From NCBI GenBank assembly GCA_029006935.1, contig JAQXGX010000034.1, positions 1 through 36,012 on the forward strand: DNA of 36,012 nucleotides. The letters run 5' to 3'. Below the pieces are notes generated by a model. It worked only from the letters and a program-made list of their open reading frames with translations. It was not told the origin of the DNA and searched no databases. Positions 8,325 to 14,588 of this stretch are shown in pieces. Source of the DNA: Eggerthellales bacterium. GTDB lineage: Bacteria; Actinomycetota; Coriobacteriia; Coriobacteriales; Eggerthellaceae. Position 1 is the stretch's first letter, and each line of letters opens with the position of its first letter. Made by a program: the position numbers and the translations under genes.

Positions 8325-8531
8325 CTATTCCCCAGGCGTGCGGGCAGCGTCGGCCCTCAGGTCCTCCACCTGCTCCTCCAGAAGCATGAGCTGCTTTTCC
8401 AGCTTGCGCTGCTTGCTGAACTGCACGAAGAGCCATGCCAGAAGAAGGGCCCACAGCAGCGCGTATGCGGCAATCACAAAGGGAGCGCTGGGAATAATGG
8501 TGCTGTAAATCTGCTCAAGAACCGAATTCAT
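8325..8531 (-). CDS. Small single-pass membrane protein, CcmD-like, 68 aa
   Basis: One transmembrane helix (about 17-37) is followed by a charged helix that may form a coiled coil (QRKLEKQLMLLEEQVEDL). CcmD of other bacteria is also a tiny single-helix protein encoded straight after ccmC, where it helps release haem-loaded CcmE. The ATG lies three bases after the ccmC stop codon. Sequence similarity to CcmD is too weak to judge by eye, so the call rests on size, topology and position. Confidence 0.65.
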   Translation of the reverse strand: MNSVLEQIYSTIIPSAPFVIAAYALLWALLLAWLFVQFSKQRKLEKQLMLLEEQVEDLRADAARTPGE

Positions 8532-8534
8532 GGG

Positions 8535-9347
8535 TTAGTCCTCCAAGGCGTTCTTCAGGGCGCTCACCCGCTCCTCAAGACGGGCGTTGCGGAAGCGGAT
8601 GCGATACATGACGAAGGCAAGGCACAAAAAGCCCGCAGAGCAGATGCCCACGCACAAGCCCATTTCCGGCGTCATGCCTCCTTCGCGAAAGACCACAGGG
8701 TGCAGGCTGGTGGGAATGACCCTGGTCACCAGCATGGTAATGGGCACGTCAACGAAGCTGATCAGGGCAAGCACGGAAGCGTACGTGGCGCGACGCTCGG
8801 GCTCGTCGATGGCGTTGCGCAATATGAAGTAGCCCAGCACCAGGATCGTAAGCACCAGGTACGTGGTCAGACGGGGCTCCCAGGTCCACCACACGCCCCA
8901 CTCGAAGCGCGTCCACATTTCCCCGGTGATCATGGTGGCCACCACGAAGACCAGCGCCACTTCCATGGCGGTCTTGGAGCAGGTATCGTAACGCTGCTGG
9001 CGGGTGGTCAGGTAGCGCAAGGCGTAGAAGGCTGCCGCCACCATCACCGCCATGGAGGTAATGGCCACCGGCATGTGGAAGTAGAAGATCTTCTGGGAAA
9101 ACAGCAGCTTGTTGGAAACCATCTGGCCCCCGATGAGCTCCACTCCGTCAACAGACGCCCCGTTTACCGGGGCTATGAAGAAGAACGCCATCAAAAAGCC
9201 CGCCGTGGTGAGCATAAGCGCGGCGGCGGTGGCAACGGGCGCCAGCTTGTCCGGCCATTGTCCCATCTCAGGCAAGCCCAGGGCGAAAGGAGCAGCCTTT
9301 CCCGCCTTCCCCTTGGGGCCCGGGCGGCTCGAGCTAGAACTCACCAT
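8535..9347 (-). CDS. ccmC: CcmC haem-handling membrane protein, about 270 aa
   Basis: Six hydrophobic segments are visible, with the tryptophan-rich WWD-type motif GVWWTWEPRLTTYL and flanking histidines (YFHMPVAI, TSLHPVVF) expected to bind haem. CcmC loads haem onto CcmE during cytochrome c maturation. An in-frame ATG at 9407 would overlap the ccmB coding region; I prefer the ATG at 9347 because GGAGG lies 8 bases before it. It sits between ccmB and a ccmD-like gene. Confidence 0.92.
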   Translation of the reverse strand: MVSSSSSRPGPKGKAGKAAPFALGLPEMGQWPDKLAPVATAAALMLTTAGFLMAFFFIAPVNGASVDGVELIGGQMVSNKLLFSQKIFYFHMPVAITSMAVMVAAAFYALRYLTTRQQRYDTCSKTAMEVALVFVVATMITGEMWTRFEWGVWWTWEPRLTTYLVLTILVLGYFILRNAIDEPERRATYASVLALISFVDVPITMLVTRVIPTSLHPVVFREGGMTPEMGLCVGICSAGFLCLAFVMYRIRFRNARLEERVSALKNALED

Positions 9348-9399
9348 ATGTCCAACCTCCTTTGCGGCGATCCGCTCCGCGCAGGGAGCGCTTTCCGCG

Positions 9400-10119
9400 C
9401 TAAGCACTCACAACAAAATCGTACAAAACCCAACTCAGCAGCACCATGACCACGTCATAGCCTGCGACCAGAGCAACTGCTGGCACGAAGGCGTCCAACG
9501 CCGCCGGCGTTCCCACAATGGCCGCCGTGGTCGCGCTCACGCAGGCATACAGCAGCGGAAAGGTCAGGGGAATGAACAGCACCGCCAGCATCACGTCCTT
9601 GCCCCGGGTGTTGGCGGTAATGGTGGAAAGGAGCGTACCCACGCCGCTCATCCCCACCGTTCCCAGCACCAGCGGGACCAGGGCCAGGGGCAGGCTGGAG
9701 GAAGCCGATACGCCGCCCATGAAGAAGAACCAGAAGACCGGCACCGCCACCACCTCAACCAGCAAGGTGAACAGCAGGTTGCTGACCATCTTGGCAAGAT
9801 AGATGGCACCGCGGTCCAGCGGCGCCAGCAGCAGGCCCTCCAGGCAGCCGTTTTCCTTTTCGTAGGCAAAGGATCGGTTCAGACCCATGAGGCTGGTGAA
9901 CACGAAGAGCGTCCAGAGCAGCCCGCCGCTCATCTGCTGCACGTCCAGGCTGGCAGAAACCTGCGTGAGCGCGGCTCCGAACACGATCAGCACCAGAAGG
10001 GCGTACACGCCCATGGAGGTGATCATTTCCCGAGTGCGGATTTCCCGACGCAGGTCCTTTGCCAGCAGCTGCTTGAACTGAGCCCAGGAGCTGGGCTGCT
10101 CCACCACGGCGGGCTTCAT
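9400..10119 (-). CDS. ccmB: CcmB haem-exporter-type ABC permease subunit, 239 aa
   Basis: A polytopic membrane protein with six hydrophobic segments. The N-terminal FKQLLAKDLRREIRTREM and the segment FAYEKENGCLEGLLLAPLDRGAIYLAK are characteristic of CcmB. With CcmA it forms an ATPase that, in known Ccm systems, releases holo-CcmE from CcmC. It begins directly after the stop of ccmA, so it is translationally coupled to it. Confidence 0.92.
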   Translation of the reverse strand: MKPAVVEQPSSWAQFKQLLAKDLRREIRTREMITSMGVYALLVLIVFGAALTQVSASLDVQQMSGGLLWTLFVFTSLMGLNRSFAYEKENGCLEGLLLAPLDRGAIYLAKMVSNLLFTLLVEVVAVPVFWFFFMGGVSASSSLPLALVPLVLGTVGMSGVGTLLSTITANTRGKDVMLAVLFIPLTFPLLYACVSATTAAIVGTPAALDAFVPAVALVAGYDVVMVLLSWVLYDFVVSA

Positions 10120-10833
10120 CTAGCTCACCCCCCGGCCTACGGTCTGCGCGTACAGGTCGGAAAAGGCGTCAAATGAAAGCTCTTCCTTAGGGGCGAAGCT
10201 TGTCACGCGCCCCTTGGACAGCAGCAGCTCATGAGTGCACATCCCATAGCCCTTCTCCAGGTCATGACTGACCATGACGAAGGTCCGGCCCGCGCGAACC
10301 TGGTCTATGAGCTGGTCGAACACCGCGACCGCATGGGGGTCAAGGCCCGCGTAGGGTTCGTCCAGGAACACCAGCTGCGGATCATGGAGCAGGGCGCGGG
10401 CAATGGCCAGGCGCTGGGTCATGCCCCGGGAAAACCCCCGCACCACGTCCAGGCGCCTGTGCTTCAGCCCCACCGCCTCCAGAAGCTCCATGACACGGCC
10501 TTCGGCGTTGCGCACCCCGTACAGGTTGGCAAAGAGCATCAGGTTCTGGTGGGCGGAAAGGTCCGGGTACAGCATGGGCTCATGGCTGATCAGACCGATG
10601 CGCGAACGAACCTGGTCCGGCTCCTTCTGCAGGTCAAAGCCCAGGACCCGAGCAGATCCGGCGCTGGGCCGCGCCACCGTGGAAAGGATGCGCAGCAGCG
10701 TGGTCTTGCCCGCGCCGTTGGGGCCGAACACAGAAAGAAATGCCCCCTCCGGCAGGGAAAAGCTCACGTTGTCGAGGGCGCGCCGCTCCCCGAACTGCTT
10801 GGTCAGACCTGAAACCCGCAGCACCTCACTCAT
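10120..10833 (-). CDS. ccmA: CcmA ABC ATPase subunit, about 237 aa
   Basis: The protein has a Walker A motif GPNGAGKTTLL, an ABC signature FSRGMTQRLAIARAL, a Walker B with catalytic Glu (LVFLDEPYAGLD) and a switch His (VMVSHDLE). These are all the parts of an active ABC ATPase. The start at 10833 is supported by AAGGAG upstream and overlaps the end of ccmF by 8 bases. Order ccmF-ccmA-ccmB-ccmC identifies it as the ATPase of the cytochrome c maturation complex. Confidence 0.93.
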   Translation of the reverse strand: MSEVLRVSGLTKQFGERRALDNVSFSLPEGAFLSVFGPNGAGKTTLLRILSTVARPSAGSARVLGFDLQKEPDQVRSRIGLISHEPMLYPDLSAHQNLMLFANLYGVRNAEGRVMELLEAVGLKHRRLDVVRGFSRGMTQRLAIARALLHDPQLVFLDEPYAGLDPHAVAVFDQLIDQVRAGRTFVMVSHDLEKGYGMCTHELLLSKGRVTSFAPKEELSFDAFSDLYAQTVGRGVS

Positions 10834-13000
10834 GGTCCTGCTCCTTCGCCACATCCAAAGGCTTTTTCGCCCTGCTGACGGACCTGCGCCCGAAGGCGGC
10901 AACGAGCGCCCCCAGCGTCAGAAGCACCAAGCCCAGCCACACCAGGCCGATGAGGGGATTCACCCGCACGTCCAGGGAAAGCCCGCCGTTTGAAGAGCTC
11001 ACTCCCTTGTAGACCACGAACAGGTCTTCCGTTGGCAGGCTGATGACCGCGGCGTTCTGCTGCTGTTGCTGCGTGCTGGTGACCAGGGTGACCGAGGGGC
11101 TTGCCTGACCCAGCGGCGCTCCGTCCTTGGTCACGTCGAAGTTGACCTGGTACACCACGTTACCGTTATCCTGCGGGGTCACGCTGCTTCCCGTGAAGGT
11201 GAGCTCGTAGTCCTTGATGGTGAACGTTTGGGAGGCGGTGTCGGTCTTGGAATCATAGGCCAGATATCCCGACTGCTCGGTCACATACATGGAAGAGCCG
11301 ATCAGGCCCGCCAAGATCACCGCCATGGCCACGTGGGCCACGCCGCCGCCCAACAGGGACGCGCGCCTGGCCCTGAGGCCCTTCTTGAGCATGAGCAGGG
11401 AATTGCCCAGGAGCAGGCTGGCCACCGCCAGCCCCATCACGGTCAGGCCCTTGTAGTACCACGCCGGCCCCTGCTCCACCAGGTCGGCGGCAATGCTGCC
11501 CCCTGCCGCCAGGGATGCGTCGTAGGAAGGGCTCAGGACCAGCACGAAGTAGGCCATGAGCAGGACGAAGGTCACCGCACAGACCCCGCCTGCAACCTTC
11601 AGGCGCCCCAGCCCCTTGCGTAAGTCGGACCCGCCCCAGGAAAGCAGCGGGCATACTGCTACGAGCAGCAGGTACAGAATGCCCAGGGGACGGGCCAGCA
11701 TGTTGTAGGCGCCGGCAGGAAGGGACTGTCCGCCCAGGGGAAGGAAGCTTGGCAGGGCAGAGCTCACCGTCAGGTAGGTCAGCAGCACCGTAGCAGCGAC
11801 CATGAACACGTTGTTGAAGAAGTAGAAGTCCTCCCGGGTCAGCAGGCTTTCCGCCCGGGCGGGCTCGGCTTCGCCTTCGCCCATAGGAGCACAGGCTTCA
11901 GGCGCGGAAGAGGCCTCGGAAGCCCCGATGCTCTTACGGCGCAGCACCACTCCCGCAATACCCACGCCGAAGGAGATCGCGATCAGAGCTCCGAACAACG
12001 CAAGGGAAACCGGGTCTCCCTCGAAGGCGTGAACCGATTGCACCAGGCCGCTGCGGCTGATGAAGGTGCCCACGATCACGAACCCGTAGGTCAGACACGC
12101 GCACAGAAGCGCCCAGCCCTTGAAGATCCCCCGCTTTCGGCACATGGTCATGCTATGGATAAGGGCAACTCCCATGAGCCATGGCAGCAGGCTGGCGTTT
12201 TCCACCGGGTCCCAGCCCCAGTAGCCGCCCCAGCCCAGCACCACGTAGGCCCAGACGCTGCCCAGCCCAATTCCCACGGTCAGGAACAGCCAGGACGCCA
12301 GGGTGATGCGATTGGAGCGGTCGATCCAATCCTTGGAGTAGTCGTTGCAGACAAGCGCCGAAACCGCATAGGCAAAGGGCACGGTCAGGCCCGCGTATCC
12401 CACGAACAGCAGCGGCGGGTGAATGGCCATGGCCCAGTGCTCCAGCAGCGTGTTCATGCCCATGACCGTTGCCGCCGTGGTCAGGGTGCCGTCGGGGCCG
12501 TAGTACCGAGATTCGGTGGCGGAAAAGGGAGCGTTGGCGTCGCTGAACAGCAGCACCCCCAGAAACGCCGCCAGCACCGACTCCATGACAAGCACCGCGC
12601 AGGTGTCCAGCTTGGCAAGCTGGTCAAGTCGACGCAAGGAAACGATCAGGGAGAACAGGCTGATGAGCCAGCTCCAGAACAGCAGGCTGCCTTCGCGACC
12701 CGCCCAAAGGCCGGCTATGTTGAAGAGGACTCCCATGAGTCCCGTGGATCGGGAATGCTGGTCAAGCACGTACTGCAACGTGTAGTCACCCGTCAGGAAA
12801 CAGAACATCAGCACGCCACAGCACACGGTCAGCGCGGCAAAGCACACGGCAACAACGATGCGCCCCGCCCACACAAGGGACTGGGCCAGGTCGGCTCCCC
12901 TGGACCGGGCCGCCAGGACCTGGCCTACCGCCAGAAGCAGCACGCTTGCAACGCTGGCCACGAACGCCAGCAGCAGGCCCATTGCTCCCAGAAAGCCCAT
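10826..13000 (-). CDS. ccmF: CcmF haem lyase membrane subunit, 724 aa
   Basis: A large membrane protein with more than ten hydrophobic segments and the WWD haem-handling motif GGYWGWDPVENASLLPW. Conserved histidines include those in HWAMAIHPPLLF and FISRSGLVQSVHAF. CcmF attaches haem to the CXXCH motifs of apocytochromes. A soluble loop follows near the C-terminus (about 590-690), with a low-complexity glutamine run in TSTQQQQQN. The gene starts 3 bases after ccmE and has GGAGGG 7 bases before the ATG. No ccmG, ccmH or ccmI gene lies in the window. Confidence 0.94.
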   Translation of the reverse strand: MGFLGAMGLLLAFVASVASVLLLAVGQVLAARSRGADLAQSLVWAGRIVVAVCFAALTVCCGVLMFCFLTGDYTLQYVLDQHSRSTGLMGVLFNIAGLWAGREGSLLFWSWLISLFSLIVSLRRLDQLAKLDTCAVLVMESVLAAFLGVLLFSDANAPFSATESRYYGPDGTLTTAATVMGMNTLLEHWAMAIHPPLLFVGYAGLTVPFAYAVSALVCNDYSKDWIDRSNRITLASWLFLTVGIGLGSVWAYVVLGWGGYWGWDPVENASLLPWLMGVALIHSMTMCRKRGIFKGWALLCACLTYGFVIVGTFISRSGLVQSVHAFEGDPVSLALFGALIAISFGVGIAGVVLRRKSIGASEASSAPEACAPMGEGEAEPARAESLLTREDFYFFNNVFMVAATVLLTYLTVSSALPSFLPLGGQSLPAGAYNMLARPLGILYLLLVAVCPLLSWGGSDLRKGLGRLKVAGGVCAVTFVLLMAYFVLVLSPSYDASLAAGGSIAADLVEQGPAWYYKGLTVMGLAVASLLLGNSLLMLKKGLRARRASLLGGGVAHVAMAVILAGLIGSSMYVTEQSGYLAYDSKTDTASQTFTIKDYELTFTGSSVTPQDNGNVVYQVNFDVTKDGAPLGQASPSVTLVTSTQQQQQNAAVISLPTEDLFVVYKGVSSSNGGLSLDVRVNPLIGLVWLGLVLLTLGALVAAFGRRSVSRAKKPLDVAKEQDHE

Positions 13001-13003
13001 GAG

Positions 13004-13681
13004 CTAACCCTCCAGGCTCACGCTGGTTGCGGTGAACAGGCCGGACGCGTCTACGGAGCCCTGGACCACCACCTGGGTCTGGGCCCTGACGTCATCAGGA
13101 AGCGCCCCGGCAAAGCTCACCGAAACGATCTTGGCATCAGCGCCATCGGCAGCCTGAACGTCGCGCAGCTGGAAGCGGATCTTCTGCGTGGCGTCGGCAG
13201 GATCGGCGCAGAGCAGGCCGGTGACCTTCACGGTCTTGCCCAGCACCTTTTCGCCATACTCAAGGAAGCGCCCCACGCCCAGGGCGGAGCTGGCGTTTTC
13301 GTACTTGGACGGGCACTTGGTAACCAGCTCTGAGCACTCCAGCACGCCGCCGTTCATGCGGCCGGTGCAGATGGCAGATACGCCGTTGCCGAAGGTGGCG
13401 GAAACGCCCTTGTCGTAGACCACGCGCACCGATTGGTCGACGCTGCCTTCGGGGTCGAACACGCTAAAGGTCAGCACGCCGTTTTCGTCAACGCTAAAGG
13501 AGTTGTCCACCACGGTGCAGGTGACCTGGATCTTCTTTCCCTCCAGGGAACCCGATGCGGCATCTGCCACCGAGGTGACCGTTGCCGCCGAGCTGCCGCC
13601 GACCACCGCGAACAGCAGGATCGCCACCACGGCGATCGCCCCCGCCACCACGATGAGACGTCGTTTGGTCTTTGCGTTCAT
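13004..13681 (-). CDS. ccmE: CcmE-type haem chaperone with Cys in place of the haem-binding His, 225 aa
   Basis: One N-terminal membrane helix (about 8-28) anchors an OB-fold domain whose end reads GGVLECSELVTKCPSKY. In proteobacterial CcmE the haem binds covalently to His in HXXXY; here C123 and Y127 form CXXXY, the variant described for archaeal and some deltaproteobacterial Ccm systems. A second OB-like segment follows (about 145-224, from GKTVKVTGLL to FTATSVSLEG) and makes this protein longer than usual CcmE (about 160 residues). The ribosome-binding site is GAAAGGA. It precedes ccmF. Confidence 0.85.
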   Translation of the reverse strand: MNAKTKRRLIVVAGAIAVVAILLFAVVGGSSAATVTSVADAASGSLEGKKIQVTCTVVDNSFSVDENGVLTFSVFDPEGSVDQSVRVVYDKGVSATFGNGVSAICTGRMNGGVLECSELVTKCPSKYENASSALGVGRFLEYGEKVLGKTVKVTGLLCADPADATQKIRFQLRDVQAADGADAKIVSVSFAGALPDDVRAQTQVVVQGSVDASGLFTATSVSLEG

Positions 13682-13835: not shown

Positions 13836-14588
13836 CTAATCGGCGTAAACCTGCCCCTCCAAATCGTAGCTGATGTACTGGTTCTGGAGCTGGGTGGATT
13901 CGTCGTAGCTCAGCCAGCCGGTGGGAACCTGGGCATCGTCATGACACTGGGTGCAGACCATCACGGAAGCGCGATGGGACTTGTGGCAGTCGCTGCAGGT
14001 GTACTCGGAGTGATGCCAGGAATGGGGGTTGCGCTCCAGGTTTGCCGTGGCGTCGGTCAGGTCGGACTTTGCCATGTTGTGGCAGGATTCGTTCAGGCAG
14101 AAGGTGGTTCCCTCAACGTTGTGCCAGCGCTGCAGGTTGTCCAGGCTGCGCTCGGAAAGCGGGTTGTAGAAGTTGCCCGTCACCCATTCGATTCCCTCGG
14201 TCATCTGCTCCTGCAAGGTCGGCTCGTGACAGGAAAGGCAGTTGGCATCCGCGTACGCGCGATGCGTGGCGGAAAGCATGCCGGAAGCATCGGCGACCTG
14301 GTTGCCCCACTTGTCCGTGGCGGGCTGACCCGGCTCGGAATAGTAGGTGGGATTGTACGGGTCCTGCGGGTTATGGCACAGGAAGTCACAGAACTCAGGC
14401 GTGTTATGGAAGTTCCAGAAGCCGATTCCCCCGATGGCAACCACCACTACCAGCACGGCGGTAACCACCTGCCACTGGTAGAAGCGACCGACCTTCTTGG
14501 TGAAGCGCTTCTTCTTCCCCTTCTCCGCCTTCTCCGCTGCTTCGGACTCAGCGACGGTTGCCTCGTTCTTCATTTGCTCCTCAGCCAT
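13836..14588 (-). CDS. NapC/NrfH-like membrane multihaem cytochrome c with five haem motifs, 250 aa
   Basis: A charged cytosolic N-terminus, one membrane helix (about 39-58) and an outer domain with five haem-c motifs: C67-H72 (CX3CH, CDFLCH), C117-H121 (CLSCH), C164-H170 (CX4CH, CLNESCH), C198-H202 (CSDCH) and C212-H216 (CTQCH). The NapC/NrfH family takes electrons from menaquinol and feeds periplasmic reductases; members usually have four haems with CX2CH. The gene is first in the cluster, ahead of the ccm and nap genes, so NapA via the dihaem lipoprotein is the likely acceptor. No NrfA gene accompanies it. The ATG has GGAGGGGG upstream. Confidence 0.87.
   Translation of the reverse strand: MAEEQMKNEATVAESEAAEKAEKGKKKRFTKKVGRFYQWQVVTAVLVVVVAIGGIGFWNFHNTPEFCDFLCHNPQDPYNPTYYSEPGQPATDKWGNQVADASGMLSATHRAYADANCLSCHEPTLQEQMTEGIEWVTGNFYNPLSERSLDNLQRWHNVEGTTFCLNESCHNMAKSDLTDATANLERNPHSWHHSEYTCSDCHKSHRASVMVCTQCHDDAQVPTGWLSYDESTQLQNQYISYDLEGQVYAD

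Follow-up and report, generated by a model that had tools for sequence, protein, structure and literature searches.

A second, probably haem-free CcmE-type domain in the CcmE haem chaperone of Coriobacteriia

The window analysed here, a stretch of 36,012 nucleotides from an Eggerthellales bacterium (family Eggerthellaceae, class Coriobacteriia; contig JAQXGX010000034.1), has a ccmE gene whose product continues well past its haem-binding motif. A first-pass annotation had described the extra part as an unusual OB-like segment of about 80 residues, either a second chaperone domain or a docking surface for CcmF. The locus therefore raises the question of what this segment is, where it occurs and what it may do. 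The gene has the following features.

13004..13681, minus strand: ccmE, two-domain CXXXY haem chaperone of 225 aa (ORF with ATG start, profile matches and structure prediction)
13601..13675, minus strand: N-terminal membrane helix, residues 3-27 (AlphaFold2 secondary structure; membrane role taken from known CcmE)
13319..13585, minus strand: domain 1 (D1), CcmE OB fold, residues 33-121 (Pfam PF03100 and predicted structure)
13301..13318, minus strand: haem-binding motif KCPSKY, residues 122-127, with Cys123 and Tyr127 (sequence)
13007..13288, minus strand: residues 132-225, domain 2 (D2), a further OB fold of CcmE type that lacks the haem arm (sequence and structure comparisons)
13175..13177, minus strand: Arg169 codon (a D2 residue unchanged in 72 of 72 aligned relatives)

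The ccmE ORF is complete; it lies on the minus strand, which the first-pass annotation left unstated, and runs from an ATG at 13681 to 13004, coding for 225 residues. The full-length protein scores 89.2 bits against Pfam CcmE (PF03100, cut-off 24.6), with a match at residues 37-129 (2.4e-25) plus a second matched stretch, and an NCBIfam CcmE model matches best over residues 149-221. AlphaFold2, run with a 72-row alignment, gives a helix (3-27), an OB fold (34-121, the strands of D1 lying at residues 50-121 after the N-terminal helix), the haem motif, a helix (136-146) that opens D2 about 8 residues after the motif, and a further OB fold (151-224). With a mean pLDDT of 93.6 and a pTM of 0.63 for the full-length model, each OB domain is sure and the mutual placing of D1 and D2 is not. 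Comparison of the two halves, which the first-pass annotation had proposed, yields two OB folds, both of high confidence and far above chance, and this anatomy and the assignment to the CcmE family are practically certain. One part of that description which needs changing is the length, as the segment after the motif spans about 94 residues (132-225), slightly more than the 80 estimated. At residue 55 (13517-13519, minus strand) the protein has Cys, whereas Gly occupies this position in 99% of 72 aligned relatives, among which the window protein is divergent.

Residue 123, in TKCPSKYE, is Cys and replaces the haem-binding His, as had already been read from the sequence, so that the motif is CXXXY (C123-P-S-K-Y127). 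This [H/C]XXXY motif follows the last strand of D1, no such motif is present in D2, and all 72 aligned relatives keep Cys, Pro, Ser and Tyr in CPSxY unchanged. The earlier statement that the variant belongs to archaeal and some anaerobic bacterial systems lacking CcmH agrees with the available text of two papers, which describe it in archaea and Desulfovibrio (PMC9084895; PMC3884852). The first of these, in the same available text, also reports that CXXXY CcmE is needed for haem attachment in Methanosarcina acetivorans (PMC9084895), and the analogy with the M. acetivorans and Desulfovibrio proteins suggests that the Eggerthellales CcmE likewise binds haem at Cys123. In the source text available, the Desulfovibrio CXXXY CcmE (2KCT; Goddard 2010 and Aramini 2012, as cited) similarly has Cys for His, an OB fold and no CcmH alongside it. 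However, it has one OB domain where two are present here, and 2KCT matches both D1 and D2. The CcmE of E. coli (1SR3, 8CE8) shares the membrane helix and the CcmE OB fold (Foldseek of the CcmE model against 8ce8_E, E 1.8e-5; structural comparison with 1SR3, VIA Z 12.8, rmsd 2.5, 89 aligned), but it has His instead of Cys, a single domain, and works with CcmG/CcmH.

The second domain is more than OB-like, and profile comparisons identify it as a degenerate CcmE domain. Taken alone, D2 scores 41.6 bits against Pfam CcmE (cut-off 24.6, 1.6e-10), and the same model matches D2 in 72 of 72 relatives. D1 and D2 align with each other in hhalign at a probability of 99 (E 3e-18), and when the D2 profile is compared with the PDB, four CcmE sequences rank first (best E 2.9e-9). 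Modelled alone, D2 gives a pLDDT of 93.2 and a pTM of 0.83. For this model Foldseek ranks two CcmE chains, 8ce8_E and 1lm0, second and third amid general OB folds, and the best 50 rows of a second-look structural list for D2 comprise general OB folds (MCM, AsnRS etc.) with no CcmE row; the corresponding list for the whole CcmE model covered almost only D1. As structural matches of OB folds are general, D2 is assigned to the CcmE family by its sequence and not by fold alone. The domain stops where the haem arm would start. Two D2 residues, Arg169 and Gly208, do not vary across 72 aligned relatives, and mean pairwise identity is 0.425 for D2 against 0.488 for D1. Since no Cys, His, Tyr or Met is found among the D2 positions conserved in at least 80% of the 72 relatives, the suggestion of a second chaperone domain is not favoured, and D2 probably does not act as a second haem chaperone.

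The gene stands first in a minus-strand run in the order ccmE-ccmF-ccmA-ccmB-ccmC, which is followed by a CcmD-like ORF. Downstream of the ccm run are nap genes, and upstream of it lies a gene for an NrfH/Cgr1-like cytochrome with several haems.

13836..14588, minus strand: NrfH/Cgr1-like multihaem cytochrome (NF051471 at 7.4e-83, below its cut-off; five haem motifs)
10826..13000, minus strand: ccmF (haem lyase), directly downstream of ccmE, with no OB insert (Pfam Cytochrom_C_asm and CcmF_C, sequence)
10120..10902, minus strand: ccmA, ABC ATPase (profile matches; gene order conserved)
9400..10119, minus strand: ccmB (Pfam CcmB)
8535..9407, minus strand: ccmC (Pfam Cytochrom_C_asm; TIGR01191)
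8325..8531, minus strand: probable ccmD, coding for 68 aa and immediately following ccmC (PF04995 match under the cut-off, with family evidence)

The cytochrome is a likely client of the Ccm system. The first of its five haem motifs (residue 67) is CX3CH and the third CX4CH, and all 27 homologous ORFs identified at named loci share the CX3CH; the available part of one paper reports CX3CH beside a membrane domain for ImcH and some CymA homologues (PMC6295460). A scan for promoters and terminators gave a result at chance level.

The CcmD-like ORF matches PF04995 at E 0.0046 (17.4 bits, under the cut-off of 25.6), ten of 11 tested members of its family match the same model at E <= 0.1, and a similar small ORF was found after ccmC in 36 of 57 loci by pattern search. 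A CcmD-like gene, not mentioned in the first-pass annotation, is thus probably present after ccmC; the ORF at 8325-8531 is short and easily missed by annotation. The source genome (1.79 Mb, 98.8% complete, 7.1% contaminated) had no match for CcmH, where the control search gave matches in 4 of 14 genomes. Across 197 Coriobacteriia genomes none has CcmH over the cut-off, the single match below it being a weak one in G131. CcmI was likewise not found in the source genome. For CcmG the genome has only a TIGR00385 match below the cut-off (29 against 123 bits), and this candidate was rejected as it is a plain 102-aa thioredoxin beside a thioredoxin reductase. The absence of ccmG, ccmH and ccmI noted from the window alone therefore extends to the whole source genome, in which none was acceptable, and a genome-wide search for CcmH and CcmI, also suggested at that stage, returned neither. 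Neither result that would have contradicted the first-pass reading, a single OB domain or a ccmH gene elsewhere, was thus obtained. Searches of the source genome for DsbD/CcdA and for the System II protein ResB were also negative, the ResB control search having matched 5 of 14 genomes. With CcmH, CcmI, CcmG, DsbD/CcdA and ResB not found, System I here appears to be reduced to CcmA, B, C, E, F and probably D.

This resembles the streamlined Ccm of M. acetivorans, which in the available text of PMC9084895 shares the CXXXY CcmE and the lack of CcmH and CcmI. According to the same text, however, archaeal Ccm has no CcmD, which is probably present here with a PF04995 match below the cut-off, and archaeal genomes hold CcmG and CcdA, neither of which was found here. 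For D. desulfuricans a requirement for CcmD is reported in the literature text available, which matches the probable CcmD of this system.

Coriobacteriia are mostly gut and sediment bacteria. Among 197 genomes of the class sampled, 124 have CcmE, with two CcmE matches in 117 of these, three in two and one in five; the placing of the two matches in the same frame was read at listed places, a part of the 124 genomes. In two of the five single-match genomes (G091, G149) the locus is cut by contig ends, in two others (G103, G131) diverged tails of 92 and 90 residues follow the match, and in G133 the sole CcmE match lies inside CcmF. With all five explained, none of the 124 CcmE-positive genomes is demonstrably single-domain. 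Direct reading of the window and 30 further loci of the class found the second segment in all but one, which is cut by a contig end. Among named genomes, CPS[KR]Y and a following segment are present in 80 of 80 loci, these being the best 80 of 429 relatives and all Coriobacteriia-like; 78 were recognised by pattern and two by eye, and they overlap with the 31 loci read directly, so the two sets are not independent. They include Adlercreutzia, Slackia, Gordonibacter, Raoultibacter, Enteroscipio and Rubneribacter. Many of the 80 loci are short, with CcmF seen in 75, CcmA in 66, CcmB in 58 and CcmC in 57. The order ccmE-F-A-B-C is kept where genes are seen, apart from a CcmC-like match that lies upstream in L098. 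In all 75 loci showing both genes, ccmE precedes ccmF. The two-OB build of CcmE is general in Coriobacteriia.

Some other features of these loci should be mentioned. Long frames in which CcmE appeared to be fused to large N-terminal domains (539-611 aa in family f3, 701 aa in G087) were rejected as fusions, since the upstream part is an Arg/His-rich open frame in which no domain was recognised by eye and the CcmE start is internal. In five loci outside Eggerthellaceae (L063, L066, L074, L077, L084) the ccm run continues downstream of ccmC into apparent haem-synthesis genes. Named by eye, these code for a membrane protein resembling HemX and a dehydrogenase resembling CysG/MET8, and three of the loci also have HemA. 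One record titled Aeromicrobium sp. (L086) carries a Coriobacteriia-type ccmE and is probably a mislabelled bin.

The remaining classes of the phylum present a different picture. In an Actinomycetota sample of 296 genomes, CcmE is found in 134 and CcmH in 88. From 113 of the 115 CcmE-positive genomes outside Coriobacteriia (G209 and G437 being left out), 122 CcmE domains were taken, and none is followed by a second domain, with at most 35 residues after the match and one domain (G411) cut by a contig end. Within the Actinomycetota sample, the second OB domain is thus confined to Coriobacteriia, and the earlier description of it as unusual is apt for the phylum outside this class but not inside it, where it is the usual form. 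The haem motif is HXXXY in 39 of the 122 domains, all with CcmH, and CXXXY in 36, with 26 of these in genomes without CcmH and ten in genomes with it. The other 47 have neither motif and are mostly CPSKF or CPSKM (44 with CcmH, three without). This replacement of the Tyr represents a third kind of haem motif, common in other Actinomycetota classes (for example at L146, L154, L152 and L224) and, unlike CPSKY, nearly always found with CcmH. The single-OB CXXXY proteins share CPSKY and CcmH-less genomes with the Coriobacteriia form, but end 1-15 residues after the match, with no second OB domain. As such systems exist without CcmH, the second OB domain is not simply a substitute for CcmH, and loss of CcmH was rejected as its explanation on account of the 26 single-OB CXXXY domains.

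In a tree of 88 domains (92 columns), D1 forms one group (support 100/99) and D2 forms another together with two CcmF inserts described below (100/99). D1 groups with 16 of 18 single-OB CXXXY domains from CcmH-less genomes of other classes (93/89). The simplest reading of the tree is that D2 arose once, before the Coriobacteriia diversified; an AU test did not reject D1 and D2 as one clade (p 0.434), and D2 may have been copied from D1 or acquired from outside. Four genomes with CcmH (G237, G425, G458, G449; loci L158, L160, L189, L236) have two adjacent ccmE genes. The second has CPSKY, whereas the motif of the first has degenerated to CPDKL, CPDNY or CPENY. An origin of D2 as the remnant of a tandem second gene was rejected, as in these pairs the degeneration affects the first gene instead, and the pairs do not join D2 in the tree.

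A CcmE-type OB domain without haem arm is also found inside CcmF in two genomes of one genus, G109 and G133. In G133 it lies in a CcmF loop before a conserved F-D-L-L-A-R-P stretch, and this loop is predicted to be on the outer side. G109 has the same insert plus a normal two-domain CcmE. In CcmF of three other members of this genus (G087, G111, G125) it is missing, so that the insert is present in two of the five CcmE-bearing genomes. Both inserts are nearer to the D2 profile (46.5 and 44.1 bits) than to that of D1 (33.0 and 21.7 bits), and the tree places them among the D2 domains of their own family (99/98), with D2 without the inserts as one clade not rejected by an AU test (p 0.297). The position of Arg169 is Thr in both.

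The presence of a CcmE domain within the partner protein CcmF suggests that the domain works at that partner. In the proposed mechanism, CcmABC(D) would load haem onto Cys123 of D1 at the outward side of the membrane, as in known CcmE, the haem would be handed from CcmE to CcmF, and CcmF would attach it to cytochromes without CcmG, CcmH and CcmI. D2 would remain haem-free and, as a docking module built into the chaperone, keep haem-loaded CcmE at CcmF, which is the least certain step. The docking surface for CcmF proposed at the outset thereby gains indirect support from the D2-like insert of G109 and G133, which favours docking on CcmF without proving it. The position of ccmE ahead of ccmF in all 75 loci also speaks for docking, and this role of D2 is credible at somewhat below an even chance. 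Partial distance correlations of D2, calculated for the 35 of 71 loci having all four other proteins, are 0.21 with D1, 0.19 with CcmF and 0.16 with CcmC, all weak, and about zero with CcmA and CcmB. These fit a partner on the outer face but do not separate CcmF from CcmC, and the nearly equal value for CcmC counts against docking, as do the restriction of the insert to two of five genomes of one genus and the AU test that leaves D2 without the inserts as a permitted clade. The most conserved residue of D2, Arg169, being Thr in the inserts, is not explained by docking on CcmF, and its role is more likely inside CcmE. Single-OB CXXXY CcmE presumably also works without CcmH in other classes (26 domains), which also counts against docking. 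The full reading, a six-protein Ccm system (A-F) with a haem-less CcmE copy as CcmF docking module, of single origin and later copied into CcmF in one genus, is put forward as tentative and less likely than not.

Other roles of D2 have to be weighed against docking. It may act as a lid or clamp, D1 and D2 closing over the haem at Cys123. In a cell with a single membrane, whose outer face is open, this would shield the haem, and Arg169 would contact either a haem propionate or D1. A contact within CcmE of this kind is what the invariance of Arg169 in the D2 of 72 relatives and its absence from both CcmF inserts would lead one to expect, and both the D2-D1 correlation and the short distance of about 8 residues from the haem motif to the helix opening D2 are in keeping with it. 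However, one OB domain is enough for CcmE in other classes of the phylum and the relative orientation of D1 and D2 is unsure in the model (pTM 0.63), so that a lid is possible but on the whole unlikely. Replacement of CcmH or CcmI, with D2 holding the apocytochrome for ligation, would fit the finding that none of the 197 class genomes has CcmH above the cut-off and that CcmI and CcmG were not found in the source genome. It is nevertheless improbable, as outside the class none of the 26 CXXXY domains whose genomes lack CcmH has a second OB domain, and the homology of D2 is with CcmE and not with CcmH or CcmI.

Two further possibilities were weighed. A neutral leftover of duplication with no role of its own would agree with the somewhat greater divergence of D2, but its retention throughout the class, its invariant positions and a rate near that of D1 make this highly improbable. 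That D2 is a second haem-carrying chaperone domain, holding haem non-covalently, is suggested by its CcmE OB fold; with a domain that stops before the haem arm and has no conserved His, Cys, Met or Tyr, it is the least probable of these explanations. Docking on CcmF is thus retained as the working proposal for D2.

A CXXXY Ccm system without CcmH has been described before. No paper on a CcmE with two OB domains turned up in a literature search that covered few subscription journals, and the available text of PMC9084895 makes no mention of two domains, an OB fold or a duplication. In that text, the transfer of haem from CcmE to cytochrome without CcmG, CcmH and CcmI is considered open for archaea (PMC9084895). 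A change of the chaperone throughout a class, with a related domain inside the ligase in one genus, provides a handle on the contact between CcmE and CcmF. The haem protein Cgr1 of Eggerthella lenta, according to the part of the paper available, could not be produced in other hosts, and unfit cytochrome maturation factors were suspected (PMC5953540). The ccmE-F-A-B-C-D operon of Coriobacteriia would be an obvious co-expression set for gut cytochromes such as Cgr1.
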